Source: an uncultured Alteromonas sp. | GTDB taxonomy: Bacteria > Pseudomonadota > Gammaproteobacteria > Enterobacterales > Alteromonadaceae | Length of the DNA stretch: 64,000 bases | Reading direction: 5' to 3' | Assembly: GCF_913058315.1 (NCBI RefSeq) | Contig: NZ_CAJXQY010000001.1 | Span: forward strand, 1 to 64,000 | Shown here: piece after piece, positions 12,356-20,347 of the stretch | Layout: every line of letters begins with the position of its first letter | Position numbering within the stretch: position 1 is the first letter of the stretch | Program-made: the position numbers and the translations under genes | The notes under the pieces: generated by a model | What the model was told of the DNA's origin: nothing | Database searches by the model: none | Seen by the model: only the letters and a program-made list of their open reading frames with translations

Positions 12356-12451
12356 TTTATAGTACAGCCCGGTAAATCTAACGCACAGTGGCAGAAGTCA
12401 TGAAATGGCAATGGTATAGTAAACGCAGATTTGTTTAATGTTGTAGTCCTA

Positions 12452-13471
12452 ATGATAACGCCAAGTACCCATTCGATACCAGCCTCGGGCAGTTTTTGCA
12501 AGGTCGCCGCCGGCGTTTACTGGCTTCGCATGCCGCTACCGTTTGCTCTCGACCATATCAACCTGTACCTGCTGGAAGCCGATGAAGGCCTTTATATCGT
12601 GGATACCGGTGTGCAAAGCGAGCATAGCAAGACAATCTGGCAACAGGTGTTAAACGCCCTGAATAAACCGGTTGCCGGCGTTATAGCTACCCATATGCAC
12701 CCGGATCATTGCGGGCTGGCAGGGTGGTTGTGTCAGCAGTTCAAAGTGCCGCTCTATATGAGTGCGCTGGAATATTACGGGGCAATTGCTTATTTCTCAC
12801 CTAATCCTGGCGCGGATACGTCGGTAGAAGTAGATTATTTTGTCAGGGCGGGTCTAAGTCAGGCCGAGGCAGAGAGCTATGTGAGCGATCACAGTCGCTA
12901 TGCAGAGTCTGTTGCCCCAATTCCCCTGGCTTACCAGCGCCTGCAAGCGGGTAAGTCACTGACCATTGGCAACCGGCAATGGCAGATTCTTACTTATGGT
13001 GGTCACTCGCCGGAGCACGTTTGTTTGTTCGACGCCGAGGCCAGATTGCTAATCGGCGGCGACCAGATATTGCCTTATATATCGCCTAATATCGGCGTCT
13101 ATAGCCGCGAGCCGGAGGCCGAGCCGTTAACAGATTATTTGTATAGCCTGCAGCAACTCAAACAGTTGCCCGCAGATACTCTGGTGCTACCTGCTCACAA
13201 CCAGCCGTATACCGGGCTCCCTACTCGCTGTGATGAACTCACCAGCCATCATCTTAAATTGCTGGACCGCCTGTTAAAGCATTGTGCAACACCGCAATCC
13301 TTACAGAGTTGTTTACCAAAGCTTTATCGACGAACCTTAACCGGCCAGATGTTATTTTTTGCCCTGGCAGAAGGTCTCGCTCACCTCAACCATCTGGTAA
13401 AAGCAGGCCGGGTAACACGCTCGCTCGATGAGCAGGGCGTATATCGTTACCAGGCCTGTGAAACCAATTAA
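12452..13471 (+). CDS. Metallo-beta-lactamase-fold hydrolase
   Basis: A 339-residue MBL-fold protein. The zinc-binding HxHxDH motif is present as THMHPDHCGLAG, with further ligands in the GGHSPEHVC and PAHNQPYTG regions. IYLLEADEGLYIVDTG-like strands precede the motif, as in glyoxalase II and related hydrolases, and a C-terminal helical domain follows. No signal peptide is seen, so it is probably cytoplasmic and acts on a thioester, lactone or phosphodiester. The ORF track uses TTG at 12431. ATG at 12452 is a more ordinary start, although neither has a strong ribosome binding site. It overlaps the convergent TPR gene by 4 bases. Confidence 0.85.
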   Translation: MITPSTHSIPASGSFCKVAAGVYWLRMPLPFALDHINLYLLEADEGLYIVDTGVQSEHSKTIWQQVLNALNKPVAGVIATHMHPDHCGLAGWLCQQFKVPLYMSALEYYGAIAYFSPNPGADTSVEVDYFVRAGLSQAEAESYVSDHSRYAESVAPIPLAYQRLQAGKSLTIGNRQWQILTYGGHSPEHVCLFDAEARLLIGGDQILPYISPNIGVYSREPEAEPLTDYLYSLQQLKQLPADTLVLPAHNQPYTGLPTRCDELTSHHLKLLDRLLKHCATPQSLQSCLPKLYRRTLTGQMLFFALAEGLAHLNHLVKAGRVTRSLDEQGVYRYQACETN

Positions 13472-14526
13472 CCGTCTATTGCACTACCGGTTAGCCGACG
13501 AATTTTGCTAAGCAACTGTTCGTCATTAAATGACTTGGCCTGTTGCCAGTTAATGTTGGCCCAGTGCAGCGCTTGTTGAGGCTCAGCGGCAAGGTGCAGG
13601 TAATAAAGCGCCACTTCGGCGGCATGAGTAGTGTCGCCGCGCTGTTCGCGAACCAACACCCGCTCGGCCATCGCCGTTGTCCACTTTTCCCCGGCGCCGG
13701 TTTGCTGTTCGGCAAGAGCCAGATACAGTAAAGCGCTGTCGTTCGGGGCCGGATTGTTGGCTATTTTGGGTGACAGCCGGGCCAGAATATCTTCGCCTTG
13801 CTGTAAGGCCAGTTTAGCTTTCGACCACGCCACCCAACTGCTGATGGGCCATTCGCTGTCGGGTTGTTGTTCAATATGGCTAATGGCAATGGCGGGCTCA
13901 CCGGCAAATAATGCCAGGTCAGCCAGTACCTCATTAACCCATAGCGCTACGTCTTTGGAAGCGGCAGGAAACTTCTCACTAATATTGTGCAACTGCGAGT
14001 AATACTGAGTCGACGGCGATAGTTGCATGGTCGCCTCCAGCAAACAGGTGGCCATGACCAACTCCGATGTTGTGCCCATGAGTTGTAAGCAGGTTTGCCT
14101 TGCCAGGGCAGGCTCGCCCTGATTGAGCTGAACATTCGCTCGTAGTAACAACGCAGCAGGCTGGTTGGGGCGTTCTGTTAGCAGCGTATCGAGTTCTTTT
14201 AAGGCGGCGGCGAAGTTGTGCTGATGCTGCAGGAGCCGGGCGTAAACCAGCCGCTCCTGATGAGTAATCCGCTCAGCTTCAGCCAGCGTCTTAAGCGTTG
14301 CCATGACCGGTGCCAGCTCCTGTTCATTAAAGTCAGGGTGAGTGCTCTGGTTTACCAGCTCGCTCATCTGTGCGGCGGTCATGGTCACCGGTTTGACCGG
14401 CTTATGGCTATGATAAGTGTGGGCAACCGCTTGCTTTACACCAATCAGGGCCAGCGCAATAAAGGTAACTACCGAGGCGGTAAGTAAACCGGTAAGTGTC
14501 AGGCTGATGGGGAAAATACGTTTCAT
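13468..14526 (-). CDS. Membrane-anchored TPR protein of the DUF4331 operon
   Basis: A 352-residue protein with one N-terminal membrane segment or uncleaved signal (residues about 9-32, LTLTGLLTASVVTFIALAL). An exported region follows that is rich in helix pairs of tetratricopeptide type, for example RLVYARLLQHQHNFAAALKE and PAALLLRANVQLNQGEPALA. TPR arrays hold protein complexes together, and the arrangement resembles the TPR part of CcmH-like factors, but no haem or catalytic motif is seen. AAGGAG seven bases before the ATG supports the start. It is the last gene of the DUF4331-lipoprotein-TPR operon, so it probably assists those exported proteins. Its specific role is unknown. Confidence 0.72.
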   Translation of the reverse strand: MKRIFPISLTLTGLLTASVVTFIALALIGVKQAVAHTYHSHKPVKPVTMTAAQMSELVNQSTHPDFNEQELAPVMATLKTLAEAERITHQERLVYARLLQHQHNFAAALKELDTLLTERPNQPAALLLRANVQLNQGEPALARQTCLQLMGTTSELVMATCLLEATMQLSPSTQYYSQLHNISEKFPAASKDVALWVNEVLADLALFAGEPAIAISHIEQQPDSEWPISSWVAWSKAKLALQQGEDILARLSPKIANNPAPNDSALLYLALAEQQTGAGEKWTTAMAERVLVREQRGDTTHAAEVALYYLHLAAEPQQALHWANINWQQAKSFNDEQLLSKIRRLTGSAIDG

Positions 14527-14565
14527 ATCACTGCTCCTTAAAGGTCGCCATCCCTGGCTTACGGT

Positions 14566-15063
14566 TTAATTGTTGAGTAAATCGTCAAACTCAGCAGGAT
14601 TGGTTGTATCCTGAATATAGAGCCGACCATTTACCGCCAGCGGTGTATCACCAGCGTTTTGGTTAAACGCAGAACGCACTGCTGTGGAGACCCCTACTTC
14701 AAGGGCTTCAATGGCAATCGTTACGTTACCGGTTACCGCAAAAGCGGTGCCATCGGAAACCGTAAACGAAAAGCTATCGGTGCCAGTGACTTCCGCATTA
14801 GGCGTGTAAGTAAACTCGCCGTTACCCGCCACGCTAACCGTGCCCAGTGACGGCTCGGCAGACAGTGCGTAAGTCAGTCCGTCACCGTCGGCATCGGTGG
14901 CACTTAACATGTCGGTGACCGGTGTTTCGGTCTGGGTGATAATATCCAGATCGTTGGCCACGGGTGCCTGGTTAATATCGTCATAGCGGTCTTTGTTGTC
15001 GTTACTGTCAAAACAACCTGTCATCACGATACTCAGGGCACATACTGGTATGAACTTATTCAT
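14566..15063 (-). CDS. Small lipoprotein with a cadherin-like / Big_9 repeat
   Basis: A 165-residue exported protein. The N-terminus ends in a lipobox-like VMTGC near residue 17, so it is likely a lipoprotein. The core is one bacterial cadherin/Ig-like module: NQAPVANDL, then SATDADGDGLTYAL, then GEFTYTPNAEVTGTDSFSFTVSDG. This repeat is common in adhesins and RTX-type proteins and often binds calcium. The C-terminal 35 residues (GRLYIQDTTNPAEFDDLLNN) are unassigned. A strong AAGGAGGT precedes the ATG. It starts 11 bases after the DUF4331 gene and 39 bases before the TPR gene, so all three are probably one transcript. Confidence 0.75.
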   Translation of the reverse strand: MNKFIPVCALSIVMTGCFDSNDNKDRYDDINQAPVANDLDIITQTETPVTDMLSATDADGDGLTYALSAEPSLGTVSVAGNGEFTYTPNAEVTGTDSFSFTVSDGTAFAVTGNVTIAIEALEVGVSTAVRSAFNQNAGDTPLAVNGRLYIQDTTNPAEFDDLLNN

Positions 15064-15074
15064 TACGACCTCCT

Positions 15075-16652
15075 TTATTCTGAGCCAGGCAGAGGGGTTG
15101 CCAGATACGGAAAGCTGCTGTCCATCATGCTGGCATCAAGCGGTGCGCCGTCAGTAAAAGGCACATTGCCAACACTGGCGTCGCTGCTGTCGCATAATCC
15201 TAAATCAGTGTCTTCACCGTTAACGGGGATGGGGTAACACAGACGGCCCATTACCACCCGCAGAGCGATATCAACCACGTCATCGCCGGGGCGACGGCCG
15301 TTCGGGAAGCCCGCCAGATCATCACCAGCCACTCCAGCCCAGGATTGATCAGCCGCCGGGGTTGCCGGTATAGCCGTATTTAAACGCAGCATCTCAGATG
15401 GCGTTACGGTCGCCAGTTGGTTAACCCCCGGGAAGCCGGTTAAAAACGCGGTAACCAGATCGGTACGCGGAAAGTTGGTAGGGGCCAGGGTCGCTATGTC
15501 TGTACCCAATGTGGAGTTGACCGCGTCACGAAACAGAATGTTCAGCAGTTCAGGCAGTGCCGGGTGCGTGACGTAATCGGCGAATTGACCATCATCCGCT
15601 GGATGTGATGACGAAAATTTATCTTTATCACCAATACCAATCACCAGTTCGTTGACCAGCGGATTGCCCAGGCGTGATACCTGCGTCATCGCGCCGCCCT
15701 GTACTTCGGGTTTGCTAAAGGAGGCATTTGGATTCAGTATTCTGGCCTGTGGCAGGCTGGCGGTGGTCCAGGCACCAATAGTGCCGTTCCCGTCACCGGT
15801 TACACAGCTCGCGGGTACTTCAATAGCAATACTGGTGACGTTCTTGTCAGCCAGATCATCATTACCGTCTGACTGCGTTATGCCACCCGGAAAACCGTTA
15901 CCATCGCCAGCGCCCGGCATGCTGTCACCCTCAACCGGTACATAGTTGACCAAATCAAACGTTTTGCCCAAATTAACCACGAAAGGGTCTTTACGCTGGC
16001 CAACAAATACCCTGGCCGGCATCTCGCAGCCAGGCAGCATCACATCATAGACATACTGGTCGGCATAACGCTGATATTCGGTGGTGCTGGTGAAGGTTTT
16101 ATTGCCGATGTAATCGAGCGGTTTAGCAAAGTACATGGCATCCATCGGCATTATTTCGGTTCGGGTGCCGGAGCGCATATTGCCCTCAACCATCTCGAGC
16201 GAGTAGTGCTCAGAAAAGTTAACCGCACTCATGTCTTCGGCACTGACCGGACCAACATTCTTAAGCGGCACTTTTACGCTGCGCTGATTGCCTTCCGGTC
16301 CGACGGTCAGGGCAACGCCCTGGTTATCCGCAGCCAGCATGGGCGTGAATTTTAAGGCAAAACTGATGTCTTCCATGGCGTCGCCATCGTTATCAATGTG
16401 GATGGCATATTCAGCAGCCGGATCCATAGCAAAGTAATTCGGTCCGCCGTAAGCATCCTGTAACGGGATGTAGTTAGCAATTAGTGTTACGTAGCCTTCG
16501 CGGCCGCTTTCATAGCTGTTAAACGCATAGAAATCGGTACTGTCCAGAGCCGGTGCGCGCGCAATGCTGGGCGCTTCACGGTGGCTGGATGCCTGTGCAG
16601 TTGTTGCAGCCAGTGCGCTGCCGATCATTACTGAGAGTATTAATTTTTGCAT
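15075..16652 (-). CDS. DUF4331 family secreted protein
   Basis: A 525-residue protein of the DUF4331 family. A signal peptide (about 1-21, ending TAQA) is followed by the family's hallmark start SSHREAPSIARAPALDSTDFYAFNS. It also contains DIDNDGD-like acidic turns and a C-terminal region with GRRPGDDVVDIALRVVMG. The biochemical role of DUF4331 is not established. The protein is probably periplasmic or secreted. It is first in a three-gene operon. Its upstream region carries TGCATCC-N13-AATCGTT, identical in sequence blocks and spacing to the one before the neighbouring ECF sigma gene, so it is the likely main target of that sigma factor. Confidence 0.88.
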   Translation of the reverse strand: MQKLILSVMIGSALAATTAQASSHREAPSIARAPALDSTDFYAFNSYESGREGYVTLIANYIPLQDAYGGPNYFAMDPAAEYAIHIDNDGDAMEDISFALKFTPMLAADNQGVALTVGPEGNQRSVKVPLKNVGPVSAEDMSAVNFSEHYSLEMVEGNMRSGTRTEIMPMDAMYFAKPLDYIGNKTFTSTTEYQRYADQYVYDVMLPGCEMPARVFVGQRKDPFVVNLGKTFDLVNYVPVEGDSMPGAGDGNGFPGGITQSDGNDDLADKNVTSIAIEVPASCVTGDGNGTIGAWTTASLPQARILNPNASFSKPEVQGGAMTQVSRLGNPLVNELVIGIGDKDKFSSSHPADDGQFADYVTHPALPELLNILFRDAVNSTLGTDIATLAPTNFPRTDLVTAFLTGFPGVNQLATVTPSEMLRLNTAIPATPAADQSWAGVAGDDLAGFPNGRRPGDDVVDIALRVVMGRLCYPIPVNGEDTDLGLCDSSDASVGNVPFTDGAPLDASMMDSSFPYLATPLPGSE

Positions 16653-16685
16653 GGTGTTACCCCTTTTTGTTGGTGTATTAAGCCA

Positions 16686-16712
16686 AACGATTAACCCGGG
16701 GCAGTGGATGCA
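16686..16712 (-). promoter_or_regulatory. Predicted ECF-sigma promoter of the DUF4331 operon
   Basis: Minus strand reads TGCATCC-N13-AATCGTT, with 33 bases between its last T and the DUF4331 ATG. Both blocks and the spacing are identical to the motif at 18091-18117. Two exact matches at the two genes expected to share control argue against chance. Confidence 0.78.
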
Positions 16713-16775
16713 AAATAATTTAAAAATAAATAAAAGTTAGATTTTATTTTATTTGAGCTGGTTTCAGGACAGGAG

Positions 16776-16806
16776 AAAAAATAATGGCCTCCGGTTGGAG
16801 GCCATT
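16776..16806 (-). terminator. Intrinsic terminator after the anti-sigma gene
   Basis: Perfect ten-base stem AATGGCCTCC / GGAGGCCATT with a four-base loop, followed on the minus strand by ATTTTTTC. It lies 12 bases past the anti-sigma stop, so the sigma/anti-sigma transcript should end before the DUF4331 operon. Confidence 0.9.
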
Positions 16807-16817
16807 GTGCAGGCAGG

Positions 16818-17525
16818 TTAGACTGCGCTGATTGGTGCGATATAAAGGACTTCGGTTGGTGAGCCGGTTGGCGAACCGCCATTCGGTTCAAGGCTAACCG
16901 CCAGGGCGGCGATGTCGCCTAAATCAAACCAGTCCGGACGGCTGATAGCCAACTGGCCGCCTTCTGGTAGCAGGCCCAGTGAAATCGGTGCGCCGCCATC
17001 GGCAGGTACCATCCACAGCTCGAAGTCTTTGTCGGTTCTGGCGGTAAGATTTGCGGTACTTCTGACCGCCAGAGTAGAAGTACTGATTTCTATTAACCAC
17101 AGCGGCTTGGCTTCTGCATCAGTGACAACCGCAATATCGGTAACCGGCGCTTTGACCGGCGGCGTAGCCGGCATGAGTACAACGGCCAGTATAATGGCTG
17201 CTGCCGTAGCCAGCCCGGCAATCGCTTGCCAGATAACGGGTTTTGATGATTTCGCCACAGGCAGATTCACCACATTACTGGTGGCGGTGTCGCCAGCGAA
17301 CCCCAACTGACGCTCGATGGTCTGCCAAACGGTTGCTGGTGGCTCTACCGGTTGTACGTTCTGGCCCAGTCCGTTAAGGTACTGCTCCCACATCCAGGTT
17401 GTCTCGGTAATTAACTGGCTTTCCATCATCAATTGTTGGTAGCGCCGGCGGGCGCCACCACGCAACGTGCCCAATACGTATTCTGCAGCCAGCGCGTTGC
17501 GTAACGTTTCGTTTTTATAATTCAT
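16818..17525 (-). CDS. Anti-sigma factor, RskA family
   Basis: A 235-residue membrane anti-sigma factor. The N-terminal sigma-binding helices (LAAEYVLGTLRGGARRRYQQLM, then TTWMWEQYLNGLG) match the zinc-free RskA-type domain. One membrane helix follows (WQAIAGLATAAAIILAVVLM, about 95-115), then a periplasmic RskA-type beta domain (ELWMVPADGGAPISLGLLP). It holds the ECF factor inactive until a periplasmic signal triggers proteolysis. ATG 17525 is chosen because it overlaps the sigma stop as ATGA. The ORF track's start, four codons earlier, is possible. Confidence 0.9.
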   Translation of the reverse strand: MNYKNETLRNALAAEYVLGTLRGGARRRYQQLMMESQLITETTWMWEQYLNGLGQNVQPVEPPATVWQTIERQLGFAGDTATSNVVNLPVAKSSKPVIWQAIAGLATAAAIILAVVLMPATPPVKAPVTDIAVVTDAEAKPLWLIEISTSTLAVRSTANLTARTDKDFELWMVPADGGAPISLGLLPEGGQLAISRPDWFDLGDIAALAVSLEPNGGSPTGSPTEVLYIAPISAV

Positions 17526-18055
17526 ACCGACAAACACCTTTGTAAACTTTGCAGGCCCCGGCGGATCCAGCTCTTAATAGTGCCTAATGGCGACGCCAGG
17601 TGATCAACAACTTCCTGATGCGACAGACCGTTAAAGTAGGCCAGATGAATTGCCTGACGTTGCTGATTATCCAGCTCATCCATGCATTCACTTAACTTCG
17701 GATGATCCAGCTCACTGGCAGCAATATGCGTGCTTTCATAAGGGTGGGTGTCATCGTCGTCCAGTGAGGTTTCTTTTCTGACCTTATGGTGGCGCATCAG
17801 ATCCAGCGCCCGATAGCGGGCAATGCTGATGATCCAGGTGAGTACGGTTCCCTTACCGCGCTGATAACTGGCTGCATTGTGCCAGACTTTTATATAGGCA
17901 TCCTGCGTGGCTTCCTCGGCAAGAGCGCTGTTCTGCAACATCTTCAGTACCACGGCATAGACCTGCCCGCTGGTGATTTTATAGAGCTTTGCAAAGTCTT
18001 GTTTTTGTCCCTGAGCTGTTCCACACAACAAAGGTAATAAGGTTTCCTGTTCCAT
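17522..18055 (-). CDS. ECF RNA polymerase sigma factor, SigK-like
   Basis: A 177-residue extracytoplasmic-function sigma factor. Region 2 shows SALAEEATQDAYIKVWHNA followed by GTVLTWIISIARYRALDLMR. Region 4 shows DELDNQQRQAIHLAYFNGLSHQEVVDHL and GTIKSWIRRGLQSLQRCL. With an RskA-type partner it fits the SigK/RskA (ECF19-like) group. Its own promoter region carries TGCATCC-N13-AATCGTT, consistent with autoregulation. The gene starts 31 bases after the histidine kinase gene stop, and its promoter motif overlaps that gene's 3' end. The gene overlaps the anti-sigma start for translational coupling. Target specificity is inferred from the shared motif only. Confidence 0.93.
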   Translation of the reverse strand: MEQETLLPLLCGTAQGQKQDFAKLYKITSGQVYAVVLKMLQNSALAEEATQDAYIKVWHNAASYQRGKGTVLTWIISIARYRALDLMRHHKVRKETSLDDDDTHPYESTHIAASELDHPKLSECMDELDNQQRQAIHLAYFNGLSHQEVVDHLASPLGTIKSWIRRGLQSLQRCLSV

Positions 18056-18086
18056 TGTTTCCTCAATATTTGTGAGCCTGTTTGGC

Positions 18087-19394
18087 TTATAACGATTCAG
18101 TACTCGGATCGGATGCAGTTTTATCCTCTTCTTTTGCTTCTTTAAGTAATGGCAGGCGTACCTCGATAACCGTGCCTTTTCCTTCTCGGCTATTAATCAC
18201 CAGTTTGCCTTTGTGTTTTTCGATGGCGGAATAGGCCACCGAGAGGCCAAGACCCTGGCCTTTTCCTTCCGGGCGGGTGGTGAAAAAGGGTTCAAAGACC
18301 CGCTTCAGGTGGCCTTCTTTGATACCGCAGCCGGTATCCACTATTTTGATGGCTATACCGCTGGTGGTTTGTCGGATATCGAGCATAACCAGACCGGTAT
18401 CGTTGATCGACTGGGCCGCATTCATCATCAGATTGGTGAGTGCCTGTTTCAGGCTGGCAGACTCACAGTACCATTTTAGCTGTTCAGGCTCACAGGTTAC
18501 TTTGTATTTAGGCCGTTTGAATTGCGTGCTGATAAGTTGTACCAGCTGGTTCGCCGTTTCCTGTAAGTTCAGGTAGCCCCAGGAGTGCTGGGGTTCCTCG
18601 GCAAAAGAGCGCAGCGTAGACACAATTTCACTGACCCGCTTCAGGCCATCCTTAGACTCCTTGATCAGCGGGCCCATATCTTCTTCGATAAGCTCTACAT
18701 GGGAAGCATCAAACAGATCTTCCAGTGCTTCAATATGCTCTGGTGCATGACTGGCAACCAGCTTTTTGGTCGCCTGACAGGTTTCCAGCAAATTTTGTGC
18801 GTACTGTTCCAGCGTATTTAAATTGGCCGTTACAAAACCCATGGGGTTGTTAATTTCGTGCGCAATGCCAGCGGCAAGCTGACCGGTGGAGGCCATTTTT
18901 TCTGCCTGAATAAGCTGTGACTGGGCTCTGTCGAGCTTGCGAATGAGTTTACGCTGGGCTTCATGTTCTGTTTTTAATGCTTCGGCGAGCTGGGCCTGGG
19001 CTTTAAAATAACTGGCCTGAGCGGTGACATCCTGAATCAGAATGCAGGCGTACTGCTGGCCGGTTTCGGCATCTTTATGGGGTACAATTTCCATATTTTG
19101 TACCATCTGGGTTTCTTCGCCGGTAATCGGGCGACTGCTCTTGAAAGGAAAGATGTGCGGACGCTGTTCCCAATAGCTAAAACTGGGATGTTTAAGAATA
19201 AAAACCGATTTTATGCGCCGCTTAAGAAACTTAATTTGCTCGGGAAACACATCGGCCAAGGGTTTGCCTAAGGCATCCCCCCGGAGTTCAACCGGCATGC
19301 GGTCGAGAAAAAATGCGTTCAAAGAGACAATTTCATACGCTTCATTTACCAGACAAATTCCAACTGGCAGTTTATCCAGCAACGGGTTATTCAT
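18087..19394 (-). CDS. PAS-domain sensor histidine kinase, soluble
   Basis: A 435-residue histidine kinase without membrane segments. An N-terminal PAS-like sensor (about 1-125, beginning DKLPVGICLVNEAYEIVSLNAFFLDRMP) is followed by a coiled coil, the phospho-acceptor box GIAHEINNPMGF, and an ATPase domain with N-box LMMNAAQSI, G1 DTGCGI and G2 EGKGQGLGLSVAY. It should autophosphorylate on His and phosphorylate a receiver, most simply the one encoded two genes upstream. It starts 6 bases after the CheC gene, so the three genes form one operon. A 3' portion carries the promoter of the sigma gene. The signal sensed is unknown. Confidence 0.92.
   Translation of the reverse strand: MNNPLLDKLPVGICLVNEAYEIVSLNAFFLDRMPVELRGDALGKPLADVFPEQIKFLKRRIKSVFILKHPSFSYWEQRPHIFPFKSSRPITGEETQMVQNMEIVPHKDAETGQQYACILIQDVTAQASYFKAQAQLAEALKTEHEAQRKLIRKLDRAQSQLIQAEKMASTGQLAAGIAHEINNPMGFVTANLNTLEQYAQNLLETCQATKKLVASHAPEHIEALEDLFDASHVELIEEDMGPLIKESKDGLKRVSEIVSTLRSFAEEPQHSWGYLNLQETANQLVQLISTQFKRPKYKVTCEPEQLKWYCESASLKQALTNLMMNAAQSINDTGLVMLDIRQTTSGIAIKIVDTGCGIKEGHLKRVFEPFFTTRPEGKGQGLGLSVAYSAIEKHKGKLVINSREGKGTVIEVRLPLLKEAKEEDKTASDPSTESL
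18091..18117 (-). promoter_or_regulatory. Predicted autoregulatory ECF promoter of the sigma gene
   Basis: Minus strand reads TGCATCC-N13-AATCGTT, with 35 bases between its last T and the sigma ATG. It is identical in both blocks and spacing to the DUF4331 promoter motif. It is embedded in the last codons of the upstream histidine kinase gene. Confidence 0.75.
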
Positions 19395-19400
19395 AAAGGA

Positions 19401-19985
19401 CTAGCCCAGTAACTCGTCGAGCGTCGATTTTAGCCGCGTCAATGAAGCATCGTCCAGACAAAACACCACGCGCATGGTGAACGATGAAATTTGAATGTCG
19501 AACTTTACTTCCATTATCAGGCTGTGTTGCCAGTCGTATTGTGAAAAGTCACTTTTTTGCGGTGCGAATAAGGTTGGCATCTGCAGGTTGGTGGCTAATT
19601 CTAACTGTTCAGACAGCCCGGCCAGACAAGCCCCGGCAAGAATGTTGGAAAGCTCCAGAATCGTCTCGTTTATGTCGTTCTCTGAAAGAGGCTGTTCATA
19701 TTCGAGCAATTCAGCCACTTCTGCCAATCCATGGCGGGTAAGAATGGACATCACCTCACCATGAATATCGCCCATAAAAGACTGACGGGTGTAGTAAGCC
19801 TGTTGATTGTGACTGACTAAATCATATAGCCCTGCGGGGGTAACGGCGGTAATGTTTGGAATCGAAATTCCTATCTTGGTTTCGATTAAATGAGCCAGAC
19901 TATTGGCCGCCTGACCCATGGAAATGTTCATCAGTTCCTGTAAGGCATCCCGCTGGTCTTCAGACAGGGCAATGGCATCGTTCAT
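19401..19985 (-). CDS. cheC: CheC-type phosphatase with two active centres
   Basis: A 194-residue CheC/CheX/FliY-family protein that should dephosphorylate a response regulator. Two copies of the catalytic pattern E-x2-N-x22-P are present: E17-N20-P43 (with D13) and E111-N114-P137. Both sites therefore look intact. Only the first keeps the leading D/S residue. It lies between a receiver gene (4-base overlap) and a histidine kinase gene, not in a chemotaxis cluster. The three probably form a kinase-receiver-phosphatase module in the cytoplasm. The symbol is used in the family sense only. Confidence 0.85.
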   Translation of the reverse strand: MNDAIALSEDQRDALQELMNISMGQAANSLAHLIETKIGISIPNITAVTPAGLYDLVSHNQQAYYTRQSFMGDIHGEVMSILTRHGLAEVAELLEYEQPLSENDINETILELSNILAGACLAGLSEQLELATNLQMPTLFAPQKSDFSQYDWQHSLIMEVKFDIQISSFTMRVVFCLDDASLTRLKSTLDELLG

Positions 19986-20347
19986 AGATAACCCAACTCA
20001 AATAAGGTCATTGCCAACTCTTCCTTATCCAGTGGTTTACGTAAAAACCGTTTGGCGCCCAGCGACATCACTATGCGCTGTTTCTCCGGCTGGAAATCGG
20101 CACTGATAACAATTACATCCGGTGATGAAGGCTGCTCAGAAAGGTATTCAAGCACGCCAACACCATCAATTTCTGGCATGGTCAAATCAAGCAAAACCAA
20201 TTGCACCGATGTACCGGACAAGATCTCGATGGCTTCTTTTCCATTGGCGGCTTCAATGACCGTGGTTTCAAGCTCGGGTGGCAACGCCCGCACGACGCTG
20301 CGTCTGGAGAGCTTTGAATCATCTGCCACCAATACTGTTAAACTCAT
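19982..20347 (-). CDS. Single-domain response regulator
   Basis: A 121-residue CheY-like receiver with no output domain. It has the acidic pocket VADDSKLSRR near the N-terminus, the phospho-acceptor Asp in LVLLDLTMPEIDGV (about residue 54), and the conserved Lys in FLRKPLDKEE. It probably works by protein-protein contact, like CheY. It is the first gene of the receiver / CheC / histidine kinase operon, overlapping CheC by 4 bases. GGAG six bases before the ATG supports the start. Which process it controls is not visible. Confidence 0.92.
   Translation of the reverse strand: MSLTVLVADDSKLSRRSVVRALPPELETTVIEAANGKEAIEILSGTSVQLVLLDLTMPEIDGVGVLEYLSEQPSSPDVIVISADFQPEKQRIVMSLGAKRFLRKPLDKEELAMTLFELGYL

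Follow-up and report, generated by a model that had tools for sequence, protein, structure and literature searches.

A putative SigK-RskA regulon in Alteromonas with a DUF4331 operon among its targets and a possible role in envelope metal handling

The closest described counterpart of the system analyzed here is the mpt83-sigK-rskA cassette, which is known, together with a conserved SigK site, from Actinobacteria and Yersinia and whose signal is reported as unknown (PMC7509140); according to Shukla et al. 2014, as cited there, a disulfide between Cys133 and Cys183 of SigK stabilizes the SigK-RskA complex, and its reduction frees SigK. A second point of reference are the so-called anglerases, in which an Ang-1 domain carrying His1 is joined to HupE/UreJ-2 and for which dissociation constants of 74 nM for copper and 220 nM for nickel were obtained with one member (PMC12537917). 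Here we examine a stretch of 64,000 nucleotides from an uncultured Alteromonas sp. (positions 1 to 64,000 of contig NZ_CAJXQY010000001.1, assembly GCF_913058315.1; hereafter the window), in which genes for an extracytoplasmic function (ECF) sigma factor and a membrane anti-sigma factor adjoin an operon encoding a DUF4331 protein, a lipoprotein and a tetratricopeptide repeat (TPR) protein. The explanation that we favor, with somewhat better than even confidence, is that of a SigK-RskA regulon whose targets would serve the handling of metals in the cell envelope. Its regulatory part, a SigK promoter shared by both operons, appears very probable from cross-genus comparison; that the operon forms an envelope system for metals of the copper and nickel type is about an even call. 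The components of the locus, from the sigma-side promoter onwards, are the following.

18091..18117, (-): predicted SigK promoter P1, an exact match to TGCATCC-N13-AATCGTT, 35 nt before the sigma ATG
17522..18055, (-): ECF sigma factor of the SigK type, 177 aa (Pfam Sigma70_r2 and r4_2; ATG at 18055)
16818..17525, (-): RskA-type membrane anti-sigma factor, 235 aa (RskA_C, PF10099, E 4e-22)
16783..16806, (-): intrinsic terminator 3' of rskA, with a 10-bp stem, a 4-nt loop and a T-rich tail
16686..16712, (-): predicted SigK promoter P2, an exact match to TGCATCC-N13-AATCGTT, 33 nt before the DUF4331 ATG
15075..16652, (-): DUF4331 exported protein, 525 aa (PF14224, E 4e-149; ATG at 16652)
14566..15063, (-): lipoprotein, 165 aa (Big_9 Ig-like domain, PF17963, E 6e-19; lipobox MTGC17)
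13468..14526, (-): TPR protein, 352 aa (TPR_19 and TPR_16; N-terminal signal or anchor)

The sigma factor and its partner are, as far as their sequences tell, a SigK-RskA pair of the ECF18/19 type. The best sequence match of the sigma factor in the PDB is M. tuberculosis SigK (4NQW, E 4e-29), and its best NCBIfam model is likewise SigK, at 155 bits and below the cut-off of 226. Cys124 and Cys174, kept in 76 of 77 sequences, align with Cys133 and Cys183 of SigK, a correspondence counted on the 4NQW alignment with an inferred tag offset of 17 residues. The rskA gene overlaps the sigma gene by 4 nt and stays beside it in related loci. A sequence-only reading of this DNA had already named all five genes, placed an intrinsic terminator between two operons and taken the products of the second operon to be exported; domain matches in Pfam and NCBIfam bear out the identities, the export of the DUF4331, lipoprotein and TPR products was upheld, and the 10-bp hairpin followed by a T-run at 16806-16783(-), GC-rich and with a dG of -18.1 kcal/mol and a z of -4.2, does lie between rskA and the DUF4331 gene.

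The same reading had linked the two operons through motif blocks of identical sequence and spacing at similar distances from the start codons, and the two copies, 33 and 35 nt upstream, are indeed exact and the sole exact matches to TGCATCC-N13-AATCGTT in the window. An A/T-rich stretch lies immediately upstream of P2, and P1 overlaps the last codons of a histidine-kinase gene (18087-19394). Directly upstream of the sigma gene, close relatives share a conserved gene cluster (18087-20347 in the window), which encodes this kinase, a response regulator and a CheC/CheX-like protein. Since a window scan allowing up to three mismatches was unremarkable (10 matches against 6.4 expected), the significance of the motif was judged by its conservation. 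With DUF4331 as query, species genomes yielded 80 loci at 71-96% identity, from Alteromonas, Pseudoalteromonas, Colwellia, Paraglaciecola, Rheinheimera, Arsukibacterium, Catenovulum, Cellvibrio, Gilvimarinus, Photobacterium and other genera; the sigma, RskA, DUF4331 and lipoprotein genes occur together in most of them and the TPR gene in nearly all. The pattern TG[CA]ATC[CT]-N16-CGT[TA], sought within 300 nt upstream of gene starts, precedes DUF4331 in 76 of the 80 loci. Three further loci (L014-L016) carry there a site whose spacer is one base longer (17 nt), which leaves a single locus, that of A. lipotrueiana, without a site. Upstream of sigma the pattern is found in 54 of 76 loci, and four further loci (L045, L046, L048, L082) show, when read directly, a site differing by one base at the position where one is expected. 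Shuffled upstream regions matched at a rate of 0.0009 per region; across the 80 loci there are 144 sites for the pattern as against 7 for its reversed form, and nearly all of the 144 precede a DUF4331, sigma or TonB-receptor gene. Conservation across so many genera makes a chance origin very unlikely, and the refined motif, TGCATCYA-N15-CGTT/A, is by this comparison a real promoter motif, with a conserved -10 core of CGTT or CGTA, a weakly conserved AAT part of the -10 block, and a gap of 16 nt between CATCC and CGTT as in ECF promoters. The scan of the genome and its relatives that the sequence-only reading had suggested thus sustains its claims that an ECF sigma factor is paired with RskA, that the sigma promoter is autoregulatory and that the DUF4331 operon has this promoter too.

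Natural variants tie the motif to SigK. Seven Alteromonas loci have a gene for a TonB receptor immediately before sigma; in these the motif precedes the receptor gene and is missing before sigma itself. In A. lipotrueiana (L041) the DUF4331 gene has no motif and the genome has no SigK ortholog, its best ECF match being 36% identical; here the DUF4331-lipoprotein-TPR-HupE genes have been retained and SigK and motif lost, as in a natural knock-out. In A. confluentis (L023) sigma is absent from the DUF4331 locus, a 68% SigK ortholog resides on another contig, and the motif is present both before that off-locus sigma and before DUF4331. These three natural experiments comprise few events, and all of them agree in suggesting that motif and sigma factor belong together. 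We infer that SigK is the sigma factor that reads the motif, and the same holds for the signal that would free it.

The regulon appears to extend beyond the locus, which had been described as self-contained, a description that does not stand. The strict pattern has eight matches in the genome to which the window belongs, and one of these, at 43440-43466 of contig C25, lies 69 nt before a gene whose product is a lipoprotein of 687 aa bearing an NHL repeat (propeller). This lipoprotein occurs in 29 of the 80 searched genomes, including that of the window, with the motif upstream in 27 of the 29, and in A. confluentis its gene comes immediately after SigK-RskA and likewise has the motif; because of promoter and neighborhood it was assigned to the regulon, which in relatives further includes HupE/UreJ-2 and, in some, a TonB receptor. 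The remaining matches in the genome, those to a relaxed pattern included, were not accepted as promoters on account of their location inside genes, save for one at C20:19015 that lies outside the called open reading frames, is followed at short distance by no called gene start and has neither A nor G at position 8.

As to what the targets do, the earlier label of a stress or envelope system is vague, and the evidence tends towards a handling of metals in the envelope. A HupE_UreJ_2 permease gene follows the TPR or the lipoprotein gene in 66 of the 80 loci (one of them, in L084, found by frame search) and is the usual sixth gene; in 65 of 65 scored cassette permeases histidine is the first residue after the signal peptide, at an A-type cleavage site. 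A free N-terminus of the form X-X-His is the ATCUN pattern, which binds Cu(II) and Ni(II) (on ATCUN: PMC7701195). The DUF4331 protein of the window, with four conserved cysteines, has a signal peptide ending in AQA and a mature start SSHREAP, and the junction A|SSHREAP recurs in the loci examined, including copies in Streptomyces and on alphaproteobacterial plasmids; a copy in Bacteroidota keeps SSSHREAP with an uncertain cleavage site. On a plasmid of Streptomyces anulatus (L234, 5869-11882) genes for DUF4331, a TPR protein, a NicO/nickel-cobalt transporter and a fasciclin stand side by side, an arrangement that joins the known SigK target family, fasciclin, with the DUF4331 module. A TonB receptor lies in or next to 25 of the 80 cassettes. 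In the lipoprotein, Cys17 is kept in 81 of 82 sequences and the C-terminal tail (F133..NGR147) is also conserved; in the TPR protein Cys146 and Cys161 are invariant.

The start of the TPR protein varies with the presence of the permease. The window and ten close relatives (L007-L016) have no HupE, and their mature TPR proteins have His-rich starts such as HTYHSH, the start predicted in the window, or HVHGHDD; Catenovulum agarivorans (L069), also without HupE, has HINTHDTHKHD, and Catenovulum sediminis (L056) has HupE and a TPR protein without a His-rich start. In total, the TPR protein starts with histidine in 12 of the 12 cassettes that have TPR and no HupE, and in one (L039) among those with HupE. 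This exchange is suggestive, not proof, of a replacement of one metal contact by another. The MBL-fold hydrolase gene at 12431-13471, convergent with the TPR gene and overlapping it by 4 nt, occupies the place that HupE has in other genera.

The mechanism that we propose would run as follows. As is known of the family, the membrane anti-sigma factor RskA would sequester SigK and let it go in response to a redox or envelope signal; freed SigK, with RNA polymerase, would then read CATCC/CGTT at P1 (its own operon), at P2 (DUF4331-lipoprotein-TPR) and at the propeller-lipoprotein promoter. Within the envelope, the target proteins may bind a transition metal of the Cu/Ni/Co class and hand it on, along a path that in most relatives would end in the inner-membrane HupE/UreJ-2 permease with its N-terminal His domain; in the lineage of the window, where the permease gene is gone from the operon, the His-rich N-terminus of the TPR protein may take over the metal contact. 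A broader form of the proposal, which we advance only tentatively and at slightly less than even confidence, holds that DUF4331 proteins are secreted proteins binding metals of the Cu/Ni class through their X-X-His N-terminus and, with TPR and HupE/UreJ-2 or NicO, make up a widespread envelope metal-handling module, placed under SigK-RskA in marine Gammaproteobacteria and with permease loss matched by a His-rich TPR start.

Several points weigh against this interpretation. The operon of the window has itself no HupE_UreJ_2 permease, so that the link to the permease is made via relatives only, and copper and nickel binding by the cassette HupE/UreJ-2 subfamily would be carried over by analogy from Ang-1. 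Signal-peptide cleavage sites were judged by eye with the A-X-A rule and no prediction tool, a start of the form X-X-His can have a structural role, and the exchange between HupE and a His-rich TPR start probably amounts to two independent events. An AlphaFold model of DUF4331 with 30 homologs reached a pLDDT of 43.5, was left unused for fold search and gave no help with the fold. On the regulatory side, the natural loss of sigma rests on a single genome, and 11 of the 76 sigma genes, mostly from Colwellia, have no evident motif, so that autoregulation is not universal.

A different use of the same SigK-RskA regulon, in which the targets (surface or adhesion proteins, or a secreted enzyme) answer redox or envelope stress and not metals, as the fasciclins MPT70/MPT83 might, would suit the two redox cysteines kept in sigma, the Ig-like and propeller lipoproteins, which are typical surface proteins, the fasciclin gene beside the Streptomyces module, and the circumstance that even for M. 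tuberculosis it is not known what the SigK regulon does (PMC7509140). We nevertheless regard it as unlikely, although far from negligible, for it leaves unexplained the constant HupE/UreJ-2 partner with its N-terminal histidine, the NicO-type transporter of Streptomyces, the TonB receptors, and the His-rich TPR start where HupE is missing. The TonB receptors in or next to 25 of the 80 cassettes, some of which come before sigma and are served by the same promoter, and their best NCBIfam matches, which are siderophore-receptor models below cut-off, could instead speak for cell-surface signaling of the FecI-FecR type, with the receptor sensing a ligand and informing the anti-sigma factor and the operon serving the uptake of an iron carrier. 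However, the anti-sigma factor is of the RskA_C type and not FecR, most cassettes have no TonB receptor, and none stands under this promoter in the genome or operon of the window, which makes this account very improbable.

More improbable still would be that the two motif copies are a coincidence, or an operator shared for another regulator, and that SigK does not drive the operons. The chance-level result of the three-mismatch scan and the position of the sigma-side copy in the end of a coding gene fit such a view; yet spacing and position remain constant across genera while the spacer sequence diverges, the motif moves with the start of the operon and is lost jointly with SigK, and the gap of 16 nt between CATCC and CGTT is the geometry of an ECF promoter.

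Other searches concerned the targets and their surroundings. A search of PDB sequences with DUF4331 gave no match by single sequence and weak C3d matches (E 0.2) by profile. The two other HupE_UreJ_2 genes of the genome (L215 and L216, contigs C30 and C87), considered as displaced partners, were rejected because they have no motif; both proteins seem to start with histidine after the signal peptide. A role in defense was likewise set aside, PADLOC lending it no support beyond a weak Csm6-like match to the TPR protein. Plasmids of Paracoccus and Sulfitobacter (L231, L236) carry DUF4331 without sigma, TPR or HupE, beside prepilin peptidase (A24) and type II secretion genes. Lastly, one end of contig C25 (L109 1661-1978) translates to LLYTSPSPRDRQKS, which looks like a sequencing-adapter remnant in the assembly.

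What the SigK regulon does has not been settled for any organism. The present locus offers a compact and non-pathogenic system in which the promoter is clear, the target units number three and the metal hypothesis can be put to the test. Were that hypothesis true, it would give a function class to the DUF4331 family across Pseudomonadota, Actinomycetota and Bacteroidota, and would tie SigK-RskA redox signaling to envelope metal handling. No paper naming DUF4331 was found among the open-licence literature, which does not prove that no such work exists. The earlier suggestion of an undescribed system therefore stands for the target set, undescribed in the literature searched, and falls for the regulatory type, already known as SigK-RskA from the mpt83-sigK-rskA cassette (PMC7509140).

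Set against FecI-FecR/TonB signaling, the locus shares an ECF sigma factor, a membrane anti-sigma factor and sometimes a TonB receptor, and differs in its RskA-type anti-sigma factor, in the optional nature of the receptor and in a promoter class of its own. With the anglerases the permeases of the relatives have in common a non-cytoplasmic domain with His-1 followed by a HupE/UreJ-2 domain, whereas the Ang-1 neighbors named there are DUF4198, indigoidine and PfkB, and DUF4331 and SigK go unnamed (PMC12537917). As in mpt83-sigK-rskA of M. tuberculosis and Yersinia enterocolitica (PMC7509140), there is a SigK-type sigma factor with two conserved cysteines and an adjacent RskA, and a SigK-driven promoter, here predicted from sequence, on neighboring genes for exported proteins and on the regulator itself. 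The fasciclin family, searched for as PF02469, has no match in the genome of the window; unlike that cassette with its fasciclin lipoprotein target, the system described here would direct SigK to DUF4331-lipoprotein-TPR(-HupE) and to a distant propeller lipoprotein, and it is this target set of a SigK-RskA system, in a regulatory type itself known, that appears to be new within the literature searched.

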